Part shown: positions 953-35,698 of the stretch, in pieces | Numbering within the stretch: the stretch's first letter is position 1 | How the letters are laid out: every line of letters begins with the position of its first letter | IMG/VR virus record: IMGVR_UViG_3300025133_000246 | Location: 1 to 41,736 of that record | DNA length: 41,736 nucleotides | Direction: 5' to 3' (one strand) | Origin: a virus | Notes under the pieces: generated by a model | Databases searched by the model: none | Told to the model about the DNA's origin: nothing | What the model saw: only the letters and a program-made list of their open reading frames with translations | Translations under genes and position numbers: made by a program

Positions 953-1231
953 TCAGTAGATGCTATCGAAAACGTGACCTACACCTTCCATGATGATGGA
1001 ACGCACAATGTCATGATCTTCGATTCCAGCGGCGTACATGTCGTCAGCAAGTTCACGAAGAGCATTCTGTACTCCGTGATGCATCAACTCGTCACGAGCG
1101 AGCAAGCCAGCGTCGCCTTCGTCAGCTGCAGCCTCTTCCCATGATGCTGACGGAACACCAGGAGGACCTTCATTGAGTGACTTCATCTCTCTCAAGATCA
1201 GAGAGCGAAGGGATTCACGTGTAAGCTTCAT
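953..1231 (-). CDS. Small protein with putative capsid-targeting N-terminus (MKLTR family, copy 1)
   Basis: A 92-residue protein of unknown function. Its start codon overlaps the stop of the sheath gene (TAATG), so it is probably translated by coupling. It begins MKLTRESLRSLILRE, with a potential L-R-E protease site at residue 15. The C-terminal half contains GIEDHDIVRSIIMEGVGHVF, which aligns with the G-x(4)-D-(I/M)-R-x-(L/I)-(I/V) module of the next small gene and of the gene at 27876-28127. Read together, the three tandem genes look like duplicated internal-head or structural accessory proteins. The position next to tail genes does not itself support a head role. Confidence 0.75.
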   Translation of the reverse strand: MKLTRESLRSLILREMKSLNEGPPGVPSASWEEAAADEGDAGLLARDELMHHGVQNALRELADDMYAAGIEDHDIVRSIIMEGVGHVFDSIY

Positions 1232-4224
1232 TAGACAACCGCACCTGCGTTGGTGATGACGAAGTCCAGGGACACGAACTCGATGGTGCGGGTCGGCTGG
1301 AGGAAGATCTTTCCACGAATCGTGTTGTTTTCCACATCGGCCTGAGTGGTCGTTGTGGTATCAATCTTGACTCGGAAGCGCTCAACGCCCTGGAGCTCTT
1401 GGATGCGCTGGAGGCGTGGGCGAACCAGTGCTTCAAAGCGTGCCAGTGTGCTGTCTCGGTTAGGCTCAAAGATGACCCGCCTGGAGAGCATCTTAACCTG
1501 ACGACGAATCTCGATTAGGAGACGACGTACGTTGACACGGTCAAGTGCACTCTGCGTTGCGAGAAGCGTCTTCTGACCCCAAACGACCGGACCCTTAGTT
1601 CCAGGGAACGTTGCGATTGGGTTGATCTTGGCGTCGTAGAGGACATCCAAGTTCTTTCGTCCCAGCGAAACAACAGTCTCGAGAGTAGAGTCCAGTGCTC
1701 CTCGGTTGAAGCCTGCAGGTGCGAACCACGGGTGAGCAACCTTGTCATTCAGAGACATGGCACCCAGGACAACAACCGAAGGCGGAACCTGGACATTTGT
1801 CAGCGTGAACGGGTCAGTGACGACAGCATCTGGGAAGTATGCCGCAGCGAAGCTGGTGTCCAGGTTACGGCTTGTGAAAGCCGCCGCGGTGTTCGTTACG
1901 CTAATGTCCTGGATAGCTGACGAGGTAACCACACTGTCAACAGTGTCTCGCTCATCGATGTCCATGATGTACAGAGCGTCGAATCGAGTCTCAACGACAT
2001 CGATCGCCTTGTCCGAAACCACGCTGTGACGAATACCTGGGACTGCAAGAAGCTTGATGTCAACCTCTGAAGTCTCACCCATGATGTCGAGAGCCTTCTT
2101 GAAGGCCATGACAGTAGGACCGTCATCCTGTCCCTGGTTCGCGTCATCCATCTCCTGGATGATTGCTGCATTAACCAGATCTGTCTTGTTCGGGTCAAAG
2201 ATATTGACTCCGTCGAATCCGCCCTGGATGATGAAGGAGAACTTAGCGTAGGTCTTGACAGTTAGGTCGCCGAAGTCATCGTTAACGCTAAGCGCACGAG
2301 TCTTGTTTGCAGCGTTAGCTGAGATGTTGCCCTGTCGGACGTACGAGGCGGATGCCCACTCCTTTGCATCGGCGAGTCCGTTGGAGCCAGTACGAACCTG
2401 CACATTCTCGAGAGAGAATGAGTTGTTGTTGAACCGGTCGCTATCAAGAACCGTTCCGCCAACGTCAGCTGTTCCAGCGTTATCACCAACCCACGGCGAC
2501 TGCCAAGTGGTGTGGAACTTCGGCTGGTACTTCGTGTAAGATGCAATCGTTGGATCGGGAACCAGCGAAGAGTTAGGTTCAGTGATGCTGGTCTTCCGCT
2601 CGAACTGCACTCCCCAGTAGAAGTTGCTGTTCTCTGTGAGCTTGGGATCCACACCCGTTGCAATGCTCTCTCGGAAAGGAACCGGAGGCTCAACCAGACG
2701 AGTGAACGCAAGGTTTGCACCTGCGTTGAACTGGTCAGTCACACCTGCAATGGTCGTCATGATAGACGAGCCAGAAGTTGCCAAGTGGTGAGGGCCGCGG
2801 AATCCGACGGGAAGCGCGGTTGAATCAACCTCAGCATCTTCAACTGACTGATTCATCTCAACTCGAACGAGTGCAGAGAGGTTCGGGAAGCTTCCCTCAA
2901 GAACTAGACGCTGACCGTCCGAATTCTTGTCGAAGTCCCAGTACCAATACTGGTCGCCAATGATCTTAGCAACGTAACGCTCAGAGCTTGGGTTGAGGCT
3001 AAGCTTGAGGAAGGACTCGAGAATGACTGGATCATCATCGTTATCGTTGAAGTCTCTGACTAGCAGGTCGAAGGTTCCGTAAAGATCCGTCTCAGAAGTA
3101 GACTTAGCCACGTTCCGAATGGAGATCTTGAATCTCGTGTTAGCAAAAGCGCCGTCGGACAAGGCGTGAACCTTGAACAGATTGACTGGGCTTCCACCGA
3201 ACTTCTGCGAAGTAACGTAAGGCGAGAACGGCGTGATGTACCGATCTTCGAAGCTCTCAAAGTTGGGAATCGTGGTTGAACCCACGTTGCGTGCCAACGA
3301 TGATGTCAGAAGGAAGGCAATCGGGTGGCGACCGCCATCGATTCCAGCACTTGATGTAATGATGCCCGAGCCAGTCGGTGCAGCAATCACAGGGTGAACG
3401 TCGTACTGCGAGTAGAGGTAGTGCCCCGCTGACTCAATGAGCTCTGGATCTGTGTTGAGGATGTTTCCGAAGTAGTTCGGTGCATCCACATCAAAGGAGC
3501 AAGTGAGCAGGTTGGGATACTGGTTCGTGTTGATGTGACCATTCAGAAGGATGACAAAGTCCTGCTGAGCCGAGGTCAAATCTACTGCTCCCGTCATTGC
3601 ACCCTGAGGACCCACAGCAGTGGCTGCTACAGTGTTCGAGGGCTGAGCCGACGGTGTGTTGTTTCCGGAGAGCATTGGAACGACACCCGACGGTGCCATG
3701 ATGACTGCTCGAAGGATGGGCTGTGCAATGTTCTCACCCGAGTTCTGGATGCCAGAAGTCGAGAAGATATCTGATCCTGCAGACTCAGACATGAAGCAGC
3801 CGAGGAAGTGAGTACGACCTGGGATGCCGTTGTTCACTGCCTTGCTGTTTCGTGCAAGAATACCCGAGTCCTGCACCTGCTGGGCGCCGACGACGAAGCC
3901 GGAACGAGTTACCTTTCCAGTGTTATTACCCGATGAAGTACGCTTGGTGCCATCACCAGCACCGAGCACTCGCATGTAGGTGACAGACTGGGCGTTACTC
4001 AGCCATTCGATAACAGCAAGTGGACCAAACTTCTCACCATCAGACTCACCAAACTTGGACACGAAGTCCTGTGTTGTGCCGAGTGTGACAGGAACGAAAG
4101 CGGGCCCCTGATTTGCGGTTCCGATAATTCCTGCAGGAACACCCGTGGGGGCAACATTCGCGGGACCGCTTAGGTCGATCTCACGAGCGCTTACACCAGG
4201 GCTGCGAAAAGTCAGTTCAGACAT
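1231..4224 (-). CDS. gp18: Tail sheath protein, gp18-like, paralogue B
   Basis: A 997-residue contractile tail sheath protein. The N-terminus (FRSPGVSAREIDLSG, then GVPAGIIGTANQGPAFVPV) and the C-terminal third (a WFAPAGFNRGALD segment, SALDRVNVRRLLIEIRR, PTRTIEFVSLDFVITN) are the conserved sheath core. The middle of roughly 500 residues is a variable insertion region. It is longer than T4 gp18 (659 residues). The gene directly upstream (4261-7326) is a clear paralogue with the same ends. GGAG lies just before the ATG and an ATAGGTA promoter-like element 27 nt upstream. Three small MKLTR genes follow and probably share its transcript. Confidence 0.92.
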   Translation of the reverse strand: MSELTFRSPGVSAREIDLSGPANVAPTGVPAGIIGTANQGPAFVPVTLGTTQDFVSKFGESDGEKFGPLAVIEWLSNAQSVTYMRVLGAGDGTKRTSSGNNTGKVTRSGFVVGAQQVQDSGILARNSKAVNNGIPGRTHFLGCFMSESAGSDIFSTSGIQNSGENIAQPILRAVIMAPSGVVPMLSGNNTPSAQPSNTVAATAVGPQGAMTGAVDLTSAQQDFVILLNGHINTNQYPNLLTCSFDVDAPNYFGNILNTDPELIESAGHYLYSQYDVHPVIAAPTGSGIITSSAGIDGGRHPIAFLLTSSLARNVGSTTIPNFESFEDRYITPFSPYVTSQKFGGSPVNLFKVHALSDGAFANTRFKISIRNVAKSTSETDLYGTFDLLVRDFNDNDDDPVILESFLKLSLNPSSERYVAKIIGDQYWYWDFDKNSDGQRLVLEGSFPNLSALVRVEMNQSVEDAEVDSTALPVGFRGPHHLATSGSSIMTTIAGVTDQFNAGANLAFTRLVEPPVPFRESIATGVDPKLTENSNFYWGVQFERKTSITEPNSSLVPDPTIASYTKYQPKFHTTWQSPWVGDNAGTADVGGTVLDSDRFNNNSFSLENVQVRTGSNGLADAKEWASASYVRQGNISANAANKTRALSVNDDFGDLTVKTYAKFSFIIQGGFDGVNIFDPNKTDLVNAAIIQEMDDANQGQDDGPTVMAFKKALDIMGETSEVDIKLLAVPGIRHSVVSDKAIDVVETRFDALYIMDIDERDTVDSVVTSSAIQDISVTNTAAAFTSRNLDTSFAAAYFPDAVVTDPFTLTNVQVPPSVVVLGAMSLNDKVAHPWFAPAGFNRGALDSTLETVVSLGRKNLDVLYDAKINPIATFPGTKGPVVWGQKTLLATQSALDRVNVRRLLIEIRRQVKMLSRRVIFEPNRDSTLARFEALVRPRLQRIQELQGVERFRVKIDTTTTTQADVENNTIRGKIFLQPTRTIEFVSLDFVITNAGAVV

Positions 4225-4260: not shown

Positions 4261-7200
4261 TCACTCGAAGCTCACGCCGGAGTTCGTGATGATGAAGTCA
4301 ACTGCGACGAATTCCACCGTCCTGGTCGGAACAACGACAATGCGTCCGTTCAGACGGTTCGCCTCGATGTCTTCATCGGTATTGTTGGTTGAATCAACGA
4401 CCACCTTGAACGATTCCACACCCGCCTGCGTCTGGACAAGTGCCAAAAGAGGTGTGATTTGGGAAACGAACTTCTGTCGTGTAGCTGCTGTGTTCTGTTC
4501 GAAGACGAATCGCTGTGCGATGTCTCCAACGAGACGCTTAATCTCAAGCATGAGACGTCGGACGTTGACTCTGTCGAGTGCAGAACGTGCCTGCTGCAGA
4601 GTCTTCTGCCCGAAGATAACGAAGCCTTCTCGTGGGAAAGTAGCAATAGGGTTGATTCGTGTGTCGTAGAGGACGTCGCGATCGTTAGCAGTCAGTCGAA
4701 CATCAACATTGGCGACAAAGTCAAGGCTACCACGGTTGAAGCCAGCGGGTGCGAACCAAGGGTAGCTGCTCTTGTCATTGAATGCCAATGCGGCGATAGC
4801 AGCGATAGATGCCGGAACCGTTACTCGACGAGTGTTGACCGGGTCGTCAATCTGAACATCGGGGAAGAATGCCGCTGCGTAGCTGTTGTCTACTGCACGA
4901 CTGTCGAAGGCCTCAGACGTCTTTCGAACATCAGGCTTAGCAACACTGTTGTCAAAGAGGCGAGTGTTGTCTTCGTCGTACTCTGCAATATCCATCAAGT
5001 AGATGGCCTTCGAGTACTCACGAGTCTTAGTCGCAGCGTAATCGGTGACAAAGGAGTCACGAATACCAGGGATGGCGAGAATGTTCGTGTTGACCACAAA
5101 CGGATCCGTCATCAAGCGTGCAGCAGTTCGGTATGCGAACACTGTCTGGTTCGTCTTTCCAGTTCCGTTGACGTTAGTCGCAAGGCCAGGCGAGACGAAG
5201 GACGATGCAGCAGCACCACCAGTATCTGAGGAAGCTGCAAGGTCATTCATCCTGGCCGCATCACGGTCAAGCATGTTGACGCCGTCGAAGCCACCGTACA
5301 TGAATGTGCTGAACTTTGCGTATTCTGAGAACCTGTTGAAGTCGACGGACGACGTCTGGTTGACAAGAGTTGCATAAGTGATTCGGGACGAAAGCGTACC
5401 GTCTGTCACTGTGTAGTCAACAGGATCCACTACTGCGTTTCGGATGTATGCCATCTCCAGGATGTGGTCCTTGACACCGCCCGTGAGAGCAGTGACCGCA
5501 TCGTTGGAGAAAGCTACGCGAGCGAGAGTGAACTTGTTGTTACCGAAGGCATCAGCACCAGATCCAGTAACCAGAACATCCATCTTCTCGATGCCGAGGA
5601 ACTTACCGTAGGCTTCGACCAGCTTGTTCTTTGCAGAACCGATGTTCGGGTTGTAGATTGAGTTAGAAGTAGTTCCCGTAAGCGGAAGCCTTTCGAACTT
5701 GACACCCCAGTGGAAACGACCATCAACGATCTCGCCGACACCAGGATTTCCACTAAAGCCACCAGCAGTTGCAACCTGTCCCTTAGTGATCTTGAATCGC
5801 ATAGGAAGGGGTGGAACCACAGAGCCCGTCAGGACCGATTCACCAGAAGCACCCGAAAGTGCGAGACGGCGAGCTGGAGCATCACCTTCGCTAGCTAGAA
5901 CGGTGGCAGTGTCAGTAAGTGTGTCCGAAGTCTTCAAGACGGGGACGCCACGGAATCCGAATGGAAGTGCCTTAGCAGGGACGAGACCCTTCTCAACAGC
6001 AGGATTCATGACGATTCTTAGACGCTGTGACTTGTTCGGGTAGAGACCCTGAACAATCAGGCGACGTTCATCATCATCTGTTGCATCGAAGTTGAAGTAG
6101 ACCTTCTTGTCACCCACTGCCTTCGCAATGTAGTTCTCAGCCCGCGGGTTGAGAGACACCTGCGGGAAGGACTCGAGAACCTCAGGATTTGTGTCCTGGT
6201 CATCGTAAGTTCGGACGTTGACGGTGAAAGTACCGTACTCGTCAGCAGGGTTAGTCGAACCGCGAAGATCTCGGATAGAAACCTTGATCTTGGTGTTCGA
6301 GTATGCGCCGTCATCGAGGGCTTCGAAGTGGAAGAGGTCGTACTCAGTTCCACCGAAAGGCTGGGAGATGATTGCGGGTGTCCGAGGCGTTGTGTATCGA
6401 GTGTCAAATCGACCGTAAGCGTTTCGGAAGAGCTGTGCAGTATCGCCTGATGTGTCGGAGGTGAGTCCCGAACCAGAGACAACGGCAACGGTGCTTGCTT
6501 CTGTTGCGACAGTAGCCAACTCATCTTCGACTGCGAAGTCGGCGAAGAGGTAGTGCTCTTCGTTGATGAACTTCTCAGGATCCGTGTTGAGAATCTTTCC
6601 GATGTAATCTTCAAGATTCGGATCAAGTGAAGCTGTTAGAATACGAAGACCAACGTTACCGTCTGCGGTAGAGTATGCAGAAGTCGACGAAGAGATAACC
6701 AGCTTGAAGCGTCCGGCGGACGTAACTGTAGCAAGGTCATCTGCTGTGTCAGCATACGCCTCGCCAGTTCCGTTCAGGACCATGATGCGAGTCCCCGAAG
6801 GAACCAAGATCATTGCACGGACGAGATTGACGAAGCTGTCAACAGAGGTACCGTACGAGTCGTTGTCTGTGAAAGCAGTTGGGAATCCCACTGCCTCCGA
6901 TGCCGAGACAAAGTGGCGTGCTACAAGGAACTGCACTGCTCCCTGGTGTCGACCAGAAGCAACGTCAGCAGTTGTAGCAGTTCCTTCAATCTTGAAGCCA
7001 GCATTCGTCACAGTTCCCTGTGCGCGTGTCGTTTCAATCTCGGTGGTAGACTCATTCGAGCCTGCTCCGAGAACACGCATGTAGGTCACCGCCGTGCGAT
7101 GCTTCAAAAATTCTCGGACAGCATAGGGCCCGAACTTCTTCGGATCAAGTGTACCAAACTTGGACTGGAAATCTGGGAAGGAACCGACAGTCACAGGGAC

Positions 7201-7326
7201 AAAAGCAGGGCCCTTCTGGGACGTGCCGGCAATGCCCGCTGGAACTCCGACGGGGGACTGCTGACGTGAAGTCAGGTCAATCTCCTGTTCGAAGAACCCA
7301 GGGGATCGAAAAGTCTGCTCTGCCAT
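4261..7326 (-). CDS. gp18: Tail sheath protein, gp18-like, paralogue A
   Basis: A 1021-residue tail sheath protein. The N-terminus reads FRSPGFFEQEIDLT followed by GVPAGIAGTSQKGPAFVPV. The C-terminus carries SALDRVNVRRLMLEIKR and PTRTVEFVAVDFIITN, matching the downstream paralogue almost segment by segment. Between these lies a long variable domain where the two differ strongly. Residues 482-496 (DAPARRLALSGASGE) come from a 46-nt sequence shared with the small gene at 652-945 and absent from the paralogue at the equivalent place. SD AAGGAGA precedes the ATG, and an ATACGTA element lies 44 nt upstream. Either both proteins build one mixed sheath or one has another role; the sequence does not decide. 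Confidence 0.92.
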   Translation of the reverse strand: MAEQTFRSPGFFEQEIDLTSRQQSPVGVPAGIAGTSQKGPAFVPVTVGSFPDFQSKFGTLDPKKFGPYAVREFLKHRTAVTYMRVLGAGSNESTTEIETTRAQGTVTNAGFKIEGTATTADVASGRHQGAVQFLVARHFVSASEAVGFPTAFTDNDSYGTSVDSFVNLVRAMILVPSGTRIMVLNGTGEAYADTADDLATVTSAGRFKLVISSSTSAYSTADGNVGLRILTASLDPNLEDYIGKILNTDPEKFINEEHYLFADFAVEDELATVATEASTVAVVSGSGLTSDTSGDTAQLFRNAYGRFDTRYTTPRTPAIISQPFGGTEYDLFHFEALDDGAYSNTKIKVSIRDLRGSTNPADEYGTFTVNVRTYDDQDTNPEVLESFPQVSLNPRAENYIAKAVGDKKVYFNFDATDDDERRLIVQGLYPNKSQRLRIVMNPAVEKGLVPAKALPFGFRGVPVLKTSDTLTDTATVLASEGDAPARRLALSGASGESVLTGSVVPPLPMRFKITKGQVATAGGFSGNPGVGEIVDGRFHWGVKFERLPLTGTTSNSIYNPNIGSAKNKLVEAYGKFLGIEKMDVLVTGSGADAFGNNKFTLARVAFSNDAVTALTGGVKDHILEMAYIRNAVVDPVDYTVTDGTLSSRITYATLVNQTSSVDFNRFSEYAKFSTFMYGGFDGVNMLDRDAARMNDLAASSDTGGAAASSFVSPGLATNVNGTGKTNQTVFAYRTAARLMTDPFVVNTNILAIPGIRDSFVTDYAATKTREYSKAIYLMDIAEYDEDNTRLFDNSVAKPDVRKTSEAFDSRAVDNSYAAAFFPDVQIDDPVNTRRVTVPASIAAIAALAFNDKSSYPWFAPAGFNRGSLDFVANVDVRLTANDRDVLYDTRINPIATFPREGFVIFGQKTLQQARSALDRVNVRRLMLEIKRLVGDIAQRFVFEQNTAATRQKFVSQITPLLALVQTQAGVESFKVVVDSTNNTDEDIEANRLNGRIVVVPTRTVEFVAVDFIITNSGVSFE
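5838..5883. repeat. 46-nt in-frame repeat, copy B
   Basis: Second copy of the sequence at 660-705, with one mismatch (A for C at the tenth base of the plus strand). It encodes residues 482-496 of sheath A, inside a variable loop between conserved flanks (an ALPxGFRG segment before, a VxPPxPxR segment after). Sheath B lacks the sequence there. Confidence 0.9.
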
Positions 7327-31221: not shown

Positions 31222-32475
31222 TTAGTAATCCAATCTAATTCTAAATGTCATGTCCTTTTCAGGGTTCTTTTCAACAGGACGGCTCAGCTTAGCAACAGCC
31301 AGAAGGTTATTGTTCGCGTCATACAGACCAATGGTCGTAAGGAACGTGAAGCTAAGCTGGTTGTTTTCCTGCCCCTCATCGATAACGATGATGCGACTGT
31401 CAGAGTCGACGTACGACGGGTTCGACGAGTAGTTAAACTCGTCAGCCGAGGCCCGGCAGTAAATGAGCGTGCTGTTGATGTTGGTGTTGTTCTGGAACAC
31501 GATGCCTGACAAAGTTCCCGAACTGAATCTGCATGATGCCAAGTGATCTACAATGTCATCGATTGACGCTGAGACCATCAAGTCAGGGATGAACGTCGCG
31601 CTAGGGTTGCCCGACTTATCATCGCCGATAACCATCTTACCTGCAGCGACATCACCTGCGGGAGCAGAAGCATTTAGTGCGTCAATGGCACCTGAGACGT
31701 GCTGAGTACCCGACATGATGGTTGCCATGTTGAAAACGGCAATCCCCTGGTCGTAGAAGAGCACGCCTGCATACTCTGACGTGTTAGCTGAGTTGACAAT
31801 GTTTCCGACGTCGCCACCGAATGCCACCAGCTGATTTGCAGCTGAGCCAACGTCCGTGAAGATCGTGGAGCCCGAAACCGACGTTCTGTTGATGTTCGGC
31901 TCCTGAATAGTTGGGCAAGCGCCTCCAGCAGGTGTAAAGGCACCAATCGTGCATGATGCCGACTGGTAGAACTTCATGGCGAAAGTTTCGCGCTTGATGG
32001 CATCTCGAGCAAACAGACGCTTAAAGCAAACGAACATTGCTTCATCGACACGATCGGCTGAGTCTGTAGCACCGTGAGGTGTGAAGAACGAATCCGTCGC
32101 ACTACCCAGAAGCTGCTGAGCGAACTGTCGGTAAATGTCAGTCTTCTCCCTCATCTGAATTGACGACGAAGGGAACAGGATCTTTCCGGATGAGTCATCA
32201 CCCGTCTTAGCGTCCTGTACGGTGCTACCTGAGTACCACAACCCGACAGTAAGATCAAAGACTGGGTTTGCTGTTTGTAGTGTGAAGTCCTGATCGTAGA
32301 TCGTCTGGAACATCGAAGATGTTACACCTGGACCAATACCGCCCGTCACAAAGACCTCGAACCTCTTTCGAGTCGTTGATCCCGAGATGTCGTTCTGGAT
32401 AACATCCACCAGCTGGTTCAATACTGAACGGCTGGTCTTGATGTCCTGAGCGCTAAGCTCCTTGAAAGTTGCCAT
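31222..32475 (-). CDS. Tail/baseplate structural protein with shared C-terminal domain
   Basis: A 417-residue structural protein. It starts MATFKELSAQDIKTSRSVLNQLVDVIQNDISGS and ends with TTIGLYDANNNLLAVAKLSR, then PVEKNPEKDMTFRIRLDY. I recall this C-terminal signature in tail or baseplate proteins of marine T4-like phages. The last 65-85 residues align with the end of the LamG-like protein, so both may dock through the same domain. No enzymatic motif is visible. It is tightly spaced with both neighbours. Baseplate or fibre-attachment role is inferred from family recall and module position. Confidence 0.7.
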   Translation of the reverse strand: MATFKELSAQDIKTSRSVLNQLVDVIQNDISGSTTRKRFEVFVTGGIGPGVTSSMFQTIYDQDFTLQTANPVFDLTVGLWYSGSTVQDAKTGDDSSGKILFPSSSIQMREKTDIYRQFAQQLLGSATDSFFTPHGATDSADRVDEAMFVCFKRLFARDAIKRETFAMKFYQSASCTIGAFTPAGGACPTIQEPNINRTSVSGSTIFTDVGSAANQLVAFGGDVGNIVNSANTSEYAGVLFYDQGIAVFNMATIMSGTQHVSGAIDALNASAPAGDVAAGKMVIGDDKSGNPSATFIPDLMVSASIDDIVDHLASCRFSSGTLSGIVFQNNTNINSTLIYCRASADEFNYSSNPSYVDSDSRIIVIDEGQENNQLSFTFLTTIGLYDANNNLLAVAKLSRPVEKNPEKDMTFRIRLDY

Positions 32476-32487
32476 CTAGTCGTCCTC

Positions 32488-33210
32488 TCAGCTTGCGCTG
32501 GTCTTGCTGATCTGGACTTCAAAGTCCTTCGATGCACCAGACTGCAATCCAATGATGGAAAGAAAGGCCCTAATCGTCGTCTTGTCAGTGACGAGGCCTC
32601 GAATTGTAAAGAGTCTGTCAGGAATAGACTTGACTTCCACGTCTAGCGTGAGCTGAGAGCCTCCGACTGCTGTAGTCGTAGAATCTCTGGTCACGAGGTA
32701 GGAAGCAATGTTGTCCTGATCAATGTTGTCTGGTGAGATACCAGAAAGCTGCACGAGGTCGTTGGGAAGACGAACCAGGAACGCCTGATCTCTCAGCTCA
32801 ACATCAATTGAGTCTTCGGCAGTGATTGTCTGGGAGAGAATCACTCGACGTGACTTACCTGTTCCCGAGCGACCCATTGACAGTAGAGCCCCCGTCGAAT
32901 CTAGACCCTCACCCGTGAGAGTGAGTGACGGAAGACGCACGAGCGAAGGATTGGAGAGCGCAATCAATCGATACTTCTGTGCGAAATTCTGATTTGTCAG
33001 CGCTTCAAACACGGGAGTGTTCTTCTCGATCTTCTCCTTACCTACCGTGCGCCCAAACTTTCGAATGAGAGTGTAGTCTACTTCGTCATCTGACAAAGCA
33101 AACTTCACGATTGAAAAAGAACCGTCATTCTTAGACAAGAACTCTCGGCCGACATCGGTAAGCACCGAGTCAAGAAGAATGTTATTTGTTGAATGATCGA
33201 GGAAACCGAT
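32488..33210 (-). CDS. Tail structural protein whose start codon is displaced by homing endonuclease
   Basis: A 240-residue protein read from the conserved N-terminus (I)GFLDHSTNNILLDSVLTDVG, followed by GSFSIVKFALSDDEVDY and FGRTVGKEKIEKNTPVFEAL. In homologues I recall from marine T4-like phages this begins with Met-Gly-Phe-Leu-Asp; here the Met position is ATC at 33210. No ATG, GTG or TTG exists close by in frame. GGGTGGT six to seven nt upstream of the ATC could act as a ribosome site. Otherwise an in-frame ATG at 33300, inside the endonuclease gene, would add 30 foreign residues, or a GTG at VLTD would truncate it. Confidence 0.7.
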   Translation of the reverse strand: MGFLDHSTNNILLDSVLTDVGREFLSKNDGSFSIVKFALSDDEVDYTLIRKFGRTVGKEKIEKNTPVFEALTNQNFAQKYRLIALSNPSLVRLPSLTLTGEGLDSTGALLSMGRSGTGKSRRVILSQTITAEDSIDVELRDQAFLVRLPNDLVQLSGISPDNIDQDNIASYLVTRDSTTTAVGGSQLTLDVEVKSIPDRLFTIRGLVTDKTTIRAFLSIIGLQSGASKDFEVQISKTSAS

Positions 33211-33227
33211 GACACACCACCCGACGC

Positions 33228-33860
33228 TTACGCGTACTGCCAGGAAAAATTGTAGTAGTACGGACGCTCGCCACTTAGAACCCGACGGATTCCAGCACAT
33301 CGTCCTTCGATTGCTTCTGCTGCGCGCACGATCGATACATATTCAGCTACGAAGTTTCCATCGCGTGTGAACTGCTTGACCTTTCGACACACACCAGCAC
33401 GGTCTCGTCCTGACTCGGAGATTCGCTTGCGAATCTCAATTGAGTGGGTTCGCCCAAACATCGGATTATTTCTACCCATGCGAGCAGCAGACATTGCTGC
33501 TCGCTCTTCGGTCGACCAGTCGAGCTTGCCCCATGCCTTCCCAAAGTTGTGATTCTCGGGGCCGAAGCGAGCTCCGTTACCGTCTCCGCCTGGTGTGGCG
33601 TTGTAGCCGCGGCCGTGATACGTGTCGAGCTTCTGGATCCAGAAGATCTCACGCTCATTGAGCATGTCCAGCGAGTCACATGCTTCGAGAACCTCGCGAG
33701 TGAATGCGTCTGTGCCGTGCTTCTTGATTGCACGTGCTAGCGGAACGTCAGACGATAAGCTGGTAGCTACATGACCACGCCAGCGAACATCAAGCAGCTT
33801 CGTGGTCTTTCCCACGTAGCGCTTTCCGCTATTGCTGTTAGTGATCAGGTAGACAACCAT
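33228..33860 (-). CDS. GIY-YIG homing endonuclease, free-standing (Seg-like)
   Basis: A 210-residue homing endonuclease. The GIY-YIG nuclease domain spans about residues 2-90: VYLITN, RYVGKT with Tyr15, the Arg in RWRGH and the Glu in LNEREIFWIQ. Then come a NUMOD3-like segment (NNPMFGRTHSIEIRKRISES, about 131-150) and a NUMOD1/IENR1-like DNA-binding end (VKQFTRDGNFVAEYVSIVRAAEAIEG...). This is the layout of T4 Seg enzymes. GTGAGG precedes the ATG, and TATAGTTA lies 23 nt upstream. The gene lies in the promoter-to-start interval of a tail gene and seems to have taken over its promoter and ribosome site. Confidence 0.92.
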   Translation of the reverse strand: MVVYLITNSNSGKRYVGKTTKLLDVRWRGHVATSLSSDVPLARAIKKHGTDAFTREVLEACDSLDMLNEREIFWIQKLDTYHGRGYNATPGGDGNGARFGPENHNFGKAWGKLDWSTEERAAMSAARMGRNNPMFGRTHSIEIRKRISESGRDRAGVCRKVKQFTRDGNFVAEYVSIVRAAEAIEGRCAGIRRVLSGERPYYYNFSWQYA

Positions 33861-33882
33861 GAACTTACCTCACGTCGGCTAG

Positions 33883-33890
33883 TAACTATA
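33883..33890 (-). promoter_or_regulatory. Putative late promoter, TATAGTTA
   Basis: Reads TATAGTTA on the minus strand, six of eight bases identical to T4 TATAAATA and a match to ATASKTA. It lies 23 nt upstream of the endonuclease start and flanked by GTCGG/CCGAC arms; a perfect CCGACT/AGTCGG hairpin (33894-33908) adjoins it. It probably belonged to the downstream tail gene. Confidence 0.55.
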
Positions 33891-33922
33891 TGCCCGACTG
33901 CAAGTCGGATAAAGGAGATGAC

Positions 33923-35698
33923 TCAGGAACGTAAGTCCTTGAGCTTGATTGTCAAAACTTCTGCTTCTTGAATGTCTGTGTTGATAACCTGCATCTTGTA
34001 GACATCGCGTGGGTCGCTTAGTGGCAGAAGTGAAAGATCGTTCCCGTCGGCGTCTTTTACGTCAAGGTACTCAGGATCAAAGTAGATAGACATTCGATCA
34101 AATCCAGACGTCTTCATGGTGTCGACGAAGACATTTTCCTGGAGGTAGAGATTGGGAAGCGCCTTAGGTGCTCCCGCACGAGAGACCATCTCTAGATTCA
34201 AATTGTTGCCAAAGCGGTCGAAAGTCACTCTATACTGAATTGAGTAATTTGAACTTAGCCCGTGAGCATCAATGCAGCACAGCGCGTAGATGTGGGACGA
34301 GTCTTTGTCGAAGTTCAAATCCACAAACTTGGTCTGTGGATTGTTGATCATCTTAGTGATGAATCGCTTTGGAACTCTCTCACTGCGCGGGAGCCTTTCG
34401 AGGGAATCGTCAAAATCATACTCGCCCAGCAGCTCAAATGGCAAATCAGTGGTCTTTCGTCGAAAGATCTGGAATCGCTTGATGTCTCGCTGTGGGTTGA
34501 CTGGAAACGACCAGAGAAGACGAAGCTGATTGTTCGCAAAGTCCCAGTCTGGCCTGAAGTCTGCGGGAGGCGGCGGGGGCGTGTTCTCAGTGCATTGCAC
34601 CAAAATCTCGGTGCTACCTCTCGAAGCAATAAGACCTGTTCCCAGAACAGACTCACCAGTCGTTGTCACCATTGGAAGACGAACCGCTACAACAGCCTTA
34701 ACTGTGTAGCCATAAATGCTTCCGTACTTTACGCGAGTGTCAAGAGCAATCGACGTTGTGGGGCCAACAACGATAACTGGATCATGCGGGATAGTGATTT
34801 TGCCAACGTACTCGTTCTTTTCAACGATATAGCCGACGCCCTGGATAACTCTTGAATCAACTCCTGACGCCGTCTCATCTACAGACTCGATCTTAATGGG
34901 CGTGAACCCAGAGTCGTAATCAAGTGAAGACATTGAAGTTGCGTCAAGGCCAGCGCGGGCTGCCTCTTGTAGTGCAGTGGCATCAGCAACTAAATCAGCA
35001 AATTCGTCTGCGTAGAGGTTCAACCTGTCGTCGATAACAGAGTTGACAAGAGTTCCAATGACCTTGTTGCTGACCTGTGTATGGAGAACAACTTCGCGCA
35101 ACTTCTGAAGGGTTGTCCTCTCAGTCAGGTGCGTCAAGTCAAAATCAGCAAACTCAACTCCGCACGCTGACAGTGAATTGATCGCATCAATGAGAACATT
35201 TCCGTCAACACGATTCGACGTCAGATCATTGAGTGTTTTTGCTGCCTCTGTCAAACTGCCGCTCGTGATACCCCTCAGCCCTAGAGAGCCAGATACCATC
35301 TTGAAGAGTGTGCCGTCGAGGCCAGTATCCTGGAAGTTGATTGCGGCGAAATCAAAGTTTGAAAATGCAAGCTCAGACTGAATTTTGCGGACATTAGTTG
35401 TCGTGAGAAGCTTGTCTGGATCACCCAGCGGGGTGGCATTTCGAGGTGAGAATGCACCCACCAGCGAGGTGCAATCTTGAATCGTGACAGGAGACCAGGT
35501 CAACTTCACGAAACGGGGAGTGCTCCCCTTGAGATTGACAAGCTCAGTAGCTGACGCTACGCCTCCAGAGTTGCCGCCCTCGTCATTGATGCTCTCATCG
35601 ACAGCAAAGAAGTTGTACTGGAACTCTGCAGTGTAGCTACTGACCTCGGGAATGTCAACTACATTGAGAGTTCGTGAAGGGTAAGAGATGGAGGACAT
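33923..35698 (-). CDS. Large structural protein with FN3-like region
   Basis: A 591-residue virion protein of unknown role. Residues about 375-480 look like a fibronectin-III-type domain: a proline run (ENTPPPPPADFRPDW), then NQLRLLWSFPVNPQRDIKRFQIFRR and a later SSHIYALCCIDAHGLSSNYS strand. The N-terminal half is mixed alpha/beta with a helical part (residues about 150-250). It overlaps the upstream gene by one base (TGATG), so the two are translationally coupled. Tail or baseplate localisation is inferred from neighbours. I do not recognise a T4 counterpart. Confidence 0.7.
   Translation of the reverse strand: MSSISYPSRTLNVVDIPEVSSYTAEFQYNFFAVDESINDEGGNSGGVASATELVNLKGSTPRFVKLTWSPVTIQDCTSLVGAFSPRNATPLGDPDKLLTTTNVRKIQSELAFSNFDFAAINFQDTGLDGTLFKMVSGSLGLRGITSGSLTEAAKTLNDLTSNRVDGNVLIDAINSLSACGVEFADFDLTHLTERTTLQKLREVVLHTQVSNKVIGTLVNSVIDDRLNLYADEFADLVADATALQEAARAGLDATSMSSLDYDSGFTPIKIESVDETASGVDSRVIQGVGYIVEKNEYVGKITIPHDPVIVVGPTTSIALDTRVKYGSIYGYTVKAVVAVRLPMVTTTGESVLGTGLIASRGSTEILVQCTENTPPPPPADFRPDWDFANNQLRLLWSFPVNPQRDIKRFQIFRRKTTDLPFELLGEYDFDDSLERLPRSERVPKRFITKMINNPQTKFVDLNFDKDSSHIYALCCIDAHGLSSNYSIQYRVTFDRFGNNLNLEMVSRAGAPKALPNLYLQENVFVDTMKTSGFDRMSIYFDPEYLDVKDADGNDLSLLPLSDPRDVYKMQVINTDIQEAEVLTIKLKDLRS

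Follow-up and report, generated by a model that had tools for sequence, protein, structure and literature searches.

Homing endonucleases were previously known to split genes and to overlap their neighbours. Among bacterial genes, infC is a rare and autoregulated case with an AUU or AUC start codon. PMC9845219 cites the AUU start of infC, and for T4 endonucleases the co-conversion of flanking sequences is established (PMC2988022). Here, we analyzed a stretch of 41,736 nucleotides (nt) of viral DNA (IMG/VR record IMGVR_UViG_3300025133_000246, positions 1 to 41,736; the window), in which a GIY-YIG homing endonuclease gene occupies the start codon position of a conserved late virion-region gene, in the following called the tail gene. 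We consider it probable that such endonuclease genes inserted at this start codon, captured the native expression signals and handed back an AUC start within a cassette that moves with the element and outlives the endonuclease. As far as the literature searched shows, start codon displacement with repeated AUC hand-back inside a fixed motif is new; no paper linking an AUC start to a homing endonuclease was found there.

The tail gene (32488-33210, minus strand) comprises 240 sense codons, ATC included, and a stop codon, and it has orthologues in more than 160 viral contigs. Its conserved reading opens with GGTTTCCTC (GFLDHSTNN) at 33207, and the preceding codon is ATC (33210-33208). In relatives, GFLDHSTNN follows directly on the start codon and forms the N-terminus; alignment with endonuclease-free relatives places methionine at exactly this position. 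This confirms the original prediction, made from the sequence of the window, that ATC stands where methionine is expected. The nearest in-frame ATG, GTG or TTG (hereafter NTG) is an ATG 90 nt upstream (33300-33298, minus strand), inside the endonuclease gene. That gene (33228-33860, minus strand, ATG to TAA, 210 amino acids (aa)) encodes an ordinary member of the GIY-YIG family, with a GIY-YIG domain (PF01541, 37.7 bits with a cut-off of 22.6, E 2.7e-09), a NUMOD3 motif (PF07460, 41.3 bits with a cut-off of 20.4, E 1.4e-10) and a PHROG homing endonuclease match (2.3e-37).

In 160 distinct orthologues among the matches listed, the codon before GFLDHSTNN is ATG in 137, GTG in 10, TTG in 2, ATC in 10 (including the window) and ATA in 1 (L083). 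The matches listed hold at least 160 distinct orthologues including the window, at least 149 of them with NTG, and non-NTG starts are therefore rarer than 11 of 160 suggests. A further ATC locus, L305, in a 340-kilobase contig, was added by a later scan requiring GTGT; this brings the total to 12 distinct non-NTG loci, 11 of them (10 ATC, 1 ATA) beyond the window. L305 stands outside the motif, endonuclease and NTG counts given below, in which the 11 non-NTG loci of the survey are compared with 148 NTG loci among the matches listed. Ten of these 11 loci were recovered without reference to GTGT, and L219 was added by a junction-based scan requiring AGGTGT. Scanning the viral collection for ATH at the start position yielded 11 stretches, which represent 9 distinct loci and are all true orthologues; scans for the other middle-T codons (third base A, C or T; CTG was not scanned) and for codons without a middle T gave no orthologue and at most one unrelated match. 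A search of the genome collection returned two matches, both with ATG at the start codon, and no near-identical DNA was found in cultured phages. Three non-NTG loci were each present in two loci or contigs (L062/L092, L083/L091 and L084/L087), and their recurrence in independent assemblies argues against sequencing errors.

In 5 of the 11 loci (L062, L083, L084, L088 and L090), the reading frame contains no ATG, GTG or TTG from the last stop to codon 2, and the sole in-frame candidate in L086 is a GTG without a ribosome site. The gap between the stop of the upstream gene and ATC measures 96 nt in L084 and 71 nt in L086, with the element TATANTTA within it. In the non-NTG loci the tail gene is under protein-level constraint from codon 2 onward: substitutions in codons 2-19 are mostly synonymous, the codons before -3 show no conservation, and the reading frames are full length. 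One gene copy per record, with no second intact copy, was found in 11 of 11 records tested. Because of the missing NTG codons, the short gaps, the constraint on codons 2-19, the single copies and the full-length frames, AUC (AUA in L083) is, by elimination, most likely used as the start codon. The five loci without NTG and the gaps of 71-96 nt also mean that neither splicing nor a start at ATG 33300 is a general answer. Among the starts originally proposed for the window, ATC is thus best supported and ATG 33300 is private to the window; coupling to the endonuclease may help, and the lack of a complete endonuclease in L084 and L086 indicates that it is not required. Phage transfer RNAs (tRNAs) that might serve AUC initiation were absent from the window; a tRNA search of 11 records gave one odd tRNA in one of them. 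On the contig of the ATA-start locus L091 (L302, 1501-1576), ARAGORN assigned a four-base anticodon (ttca) to a tRNA.

The insertion point was defined by comparison with L001, the closest relative (78% identical), which has no endonuclease and an ATG start. There, a promoter and ribosome-site block (catatagttaa ... gaggtaaccac) runs straight into ATG-GGT of the tail gene, whereas its counterpart in the window (catatagttac ... gaggtaagttc) runs into the endonuclease ATG. By this comparison, the insert begins on the left at the native ATG and ends on the right immediately ahead of codon 2. Both the insertion at the tail gene ATG and the capture of promoter and ribosome site, as first proposed, are borne out, with the endonuclease ATG holding the native start position. 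The captured signals comprise GTGAGG, the native ribosome site (33868-33873, minus strand; gaggtaagttcATG here, gaggtaaccacATG in L001), and a late-promoter-like TATAGTTA (33883-33890, minus strand). TATANTTA occurs within 70 nt upstream of the start in 69 of the 148 NTG orthologues versus 1 in an in-gene control, an excess that makes the reading as a late promoter reasonable. In L090, an old start copy ATGGGATTTCTAGATC is retained at the native distance from the promoter, followed by a short endonuclease remnant and then ATC-GGT.

At the right junction of the window (GGGTGGTGTGTC-ATC, 33208-33222, minus strand), a Shine-Dalgarno-like GGTGGTG and GTGT (33217-33214) precede the ATC. GTGT is located at -7 to -4 in 11 of 11 non-NTG loci and in 0 of 148 NTG loci, within (G)AGGTGTNNNAT(C/A)GG. 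The wider junction block reads AGGTGTNNNATCGG in 9 of the 11 loci, TGGTGTGTCATCGG in the window and ACGTGTAAAATAGG in L083; the junctions of the window (CGGGTGGTGTGTCATCGG) and of L085 (CGGGAGGTGTATCATCGG) are identical at 16 of 18 bases. Such conservation between endonucleases so far diverged that most end branches of their tree carry about one change per site or more implies constraint. Through this block, L085 and L089 differ in the endonuclease frame, and the endonucleases of the window, L062 and L083 end before reaching it, so that the block is not conserved as protein. Predicted anti-Shine-Dalgarno pairing amounts to -7.2 kcal/mol at the window junction, with medians of -7.1 for non-NTG versus -6.45 for NTG loci (p=0.049) and normal spacing. 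The Shine-Dalgarno element accounts for most of the junction conservation, but not for the T at -4 or for GTGT in L083. A GUG start at -7 followed by a +1 shift was considered for the invariant GTG and rejected, the only purine-rich block in L084, L085 and L090 abutting GTG unspaced. In nine ATC loci the ATC start is spanned by a weak inverted repeat, GGTG and CATC with a loop of 3 bases between them. A conserved RNA hairpin across the junction was also rejected: no covariation was found, the 4-bp hairpin reaches -0.9 kcal/mol, and single folds were no better than shuffles.

Full endonuclease genes lie directly upstream of the non-NTG start in the window, L083, L085 and L089, and C-terminal remnants with a GYxWRY-like end do so in L062, L086, L088, L090, L219 and L305. 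Endonuclease or remnant is thus present at 9 of 11 non-NTG loci (10 of 12 when L305 is counted) versus 6 of 148 NTG loci among the matches listed, namely L021, L064, L065, L066, L069 and L122 (Fisher p=2e-9, uncorrected for kinship). The remnants of L062, L066, L088 and L305 are short open reading frames (ORFs) with a start codon and an in-frame C-terminal end; those of L062 (3880-3988) and L066 lack the catalytic part and join about 12 N-terminal codons to the C-terminal part. On the protein tree of the tail gene, the non-NTG loci require 8 changes, at least 5 of them forced by well-supported branches, and the window (ATC) is sister to L001 (ATG) as L084 (ATC) is to L148 (ATG). The same-site endonucleases of L083, L085, L089, L065 and L069 are related to that of the window, those of L085 and L089 being nearest (40-44% identical). 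The tail protein of the window groups with those of L001 and L002, and the tail proteins of L085 and L089 belong to another part of the tree. The endonucleases thus occur sporadically at one site, with relationships incongruent with the virion protein. Horizontal movement of endonuclease and junction together would explain the shared junction motif in distant hosts, and the persistence of ATC after endonuclease loss suggests that the junction has become the gene's own initiation region.

Taken together, these observations point to the following course of events. A GIY-YIG endonuclease gene would insert between the start codon and codon 2 of the late virion gene, whose native promoter, ribosome site and ATG would then serve the endonuclease. 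With its 3' end, (G)GNGGTGTNNC-ATC, the insert would give the displaced gene a new Shine-Dalgarno element and an AUC start. This initiation cassette would travel with the endonuclease element and remain after the endonuclease has been reduced to a short C-terminal remnant or lost altogether, presumably because the virion gene then depends on it. The use of AUC, the movement of the cassette by homing and its retention through dependence are what we infer from comparing sequences. Several points weigh against this account. L082 and L084 have ATC and no endonuclease trace; at the ATA locus L083, Shine-Dalgarno pairing is nearly absent (-0.9 kcal/mol); and a tree-aware association test could use only five independent pairs (about three to four in agreement, none in disagreement) and was not significant. 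Also, the endonuclease tree is poorly resolved. Finally, initiation factor 3 (IF3) disfavours weak third-base pairs (PMC10158994), and together with the mismatch between AUC and the anticodon CAU this means that AUC starts are expected to be weak. The virion gene may accordingly be expressed at a low level, or its expression may be helped by the Shine-Dalgarno element or by coupling to the upstream ORF.

Such coupling, with ribosomes that end the endonuclease or remnant ORF restarting at the nearby AUC, is possible as the principal route, though doubtful. The ORFs terminate 2-20 nt before or about 12 nt after ATC, the remnants of L062, L066, L088 and L305 retain a start codon and an in-frame C-terminal end, and T4 free-standing endonucleases overlap their neighbours similarly (PMC2988022). 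However, the remnant of L086 is immediately preceded by TAG and has no start codon, and the ORF in L084 is limited to 31 aa and starts with TTG, yet both have AUC, a good Shine-Dalgarno element and TATANTTA directly upstream.

It is unlikely that ATC is maintained as an immunity mutation, ATG restoring the endonuclease's putative own target; this would be compatible with insertion and AUC hand-back. In its favour, a highly conserved reading is repeatedly hit at its start by the endonucleases, and no non-NTG codons other than ATC and ATA occur although ATG is a single mutation away. In contrast, the start codon is ATG in L065, L069 and L122, where full endonucleases of this group occupy the same position, and ATC persists without endonuclease in L082 and L084. 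Equally unlikely in our view is a stronger role of the junction, in which GTGTNNNAT(C/A) would be a specialised mobile initiation signal, spread by homing endonucleases as a unit that makes the host gene insert-dependent. GTGT would then act beyond Shine-Dalgarno pairing and let the ribosomes of diverse hosts start efficiently at AUC or AUA; such a role is suggested by the retention of GTGT in L083, where pairing is lost.

It is very unlikely that translation begins at an in-frame NTG further upstream and yields a protein with an N-terminal extension. The frame of the window is open up to ATG 33300, an in-frame ATG lies within 21 nt in L082 and L089, and a TTG lies at -12 in L219 and L305; against this stand the five loci without any such codon, and the candidate starts differ in place, mostly have no ribosome site and would give unconserved extensions.

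Least probable by far is a removal or jump at the RNA level (group I or II intron, or bypass of the T4 gene 60 type) joining an upstream AUG to the GGN codon 2: the old start copy of L090 is a layout usable by bypass, but a duplicated start is seen only there, the gaps of L084 and L086 hold no ATG-GGN copy and leave no room for an intron, the folding signal near the junction does not go beyond the 4-bp hairpin, and no Rfam match was found at 32400-34200 of the window (E up to 1) or, at the gathering threshold, in nine other loci. The earlier statement that the insert is too short for a group I intron plus ORF agrees with this.

On the minus strand, the endonuclease gene is preceded by a gene for 591 aa (33923-35698), which is also directly upstream in most relatives. 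The window belongs to a myophage with recognisable tail sheath, portal, head protease, major head protein and terminase; a tandem pair of genes of about 1000 aa (1231-4224 and 4261-7326, minus strand) both match tail sheath profiles (phrog_23). The product of the tail gene has no Pfam, PHROG or PDB sequence match, and its predicted structure is confident only in the C-terminal beta-rich part, with top fold matches of low TM-scores. Flavobacterium phage immuto and a Microcystis phage are the closest cultured relatives; their matches cover only the first ~40% of the protein and do not indicate a function. In a cultured Flavobacterium phage, a tail fiber and a tail spike are annotated three and four genes downstream of the homologue, which makes a virion role plausible. 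The original label "tail" is positional only.

Related endonucleases are also found elsewhere. In L223 (2501-3200), a related GIY-YIG endonuclease gene (34% identical) occupies the start of another gene, its ATG overlapping the stop codon of the gene before and its own stop overlapping the beginning of the following reading frame. A more distant endonuclease is encoded in L245, and GGTGTATA-ATG comes after its stop, so that GTGT again occupies -7 to -4 of the next gene, which may be chance.

If the proposed course of events is true, a mobile element spreads a non-canonical initiation signal and leaves a lasting scar. The loci with full endonuclease, truncated remnant and no remnant form a natural series for asking how a weak start codon suffices for a structural protein, and gene callers restricted to NTG starts will misplace or truncate such genes.

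Among described systems, the free-standing GIY-YIG endonucleases of T-even phages (Seg) are likewise intronless, lie beside or overlap conserved phage genes and are under late-promoter control (PMC2988022); the SegE profile is a sub-threshold Pfam neighbour of the window endonuclease. Unlike these, the window endonuclease takes its neighbour's start codon, and the end of the insert would supply an AUC or AUA start. The insertions of mobE in nrdA of phage Aeh1 and of mobA in T4 gene 60 also alter the coding architecture of a critical gene that still works (PMC2988022). There the protein is split in two, whereas here the whole protein is kept and the initiation codon alone is displaced. As to genes with AUH starts, 5 of the 11 loci have no NTG and 10 of 11 have a Shine-Dalgarno element, the window itself keeping the distant ATG 33300. 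The AUH start codon is shared with infC; infC, however, is an autoregulated host gene, whereas the non-AUG start described here goes with a mobile element and has a scattered distribution among phages.
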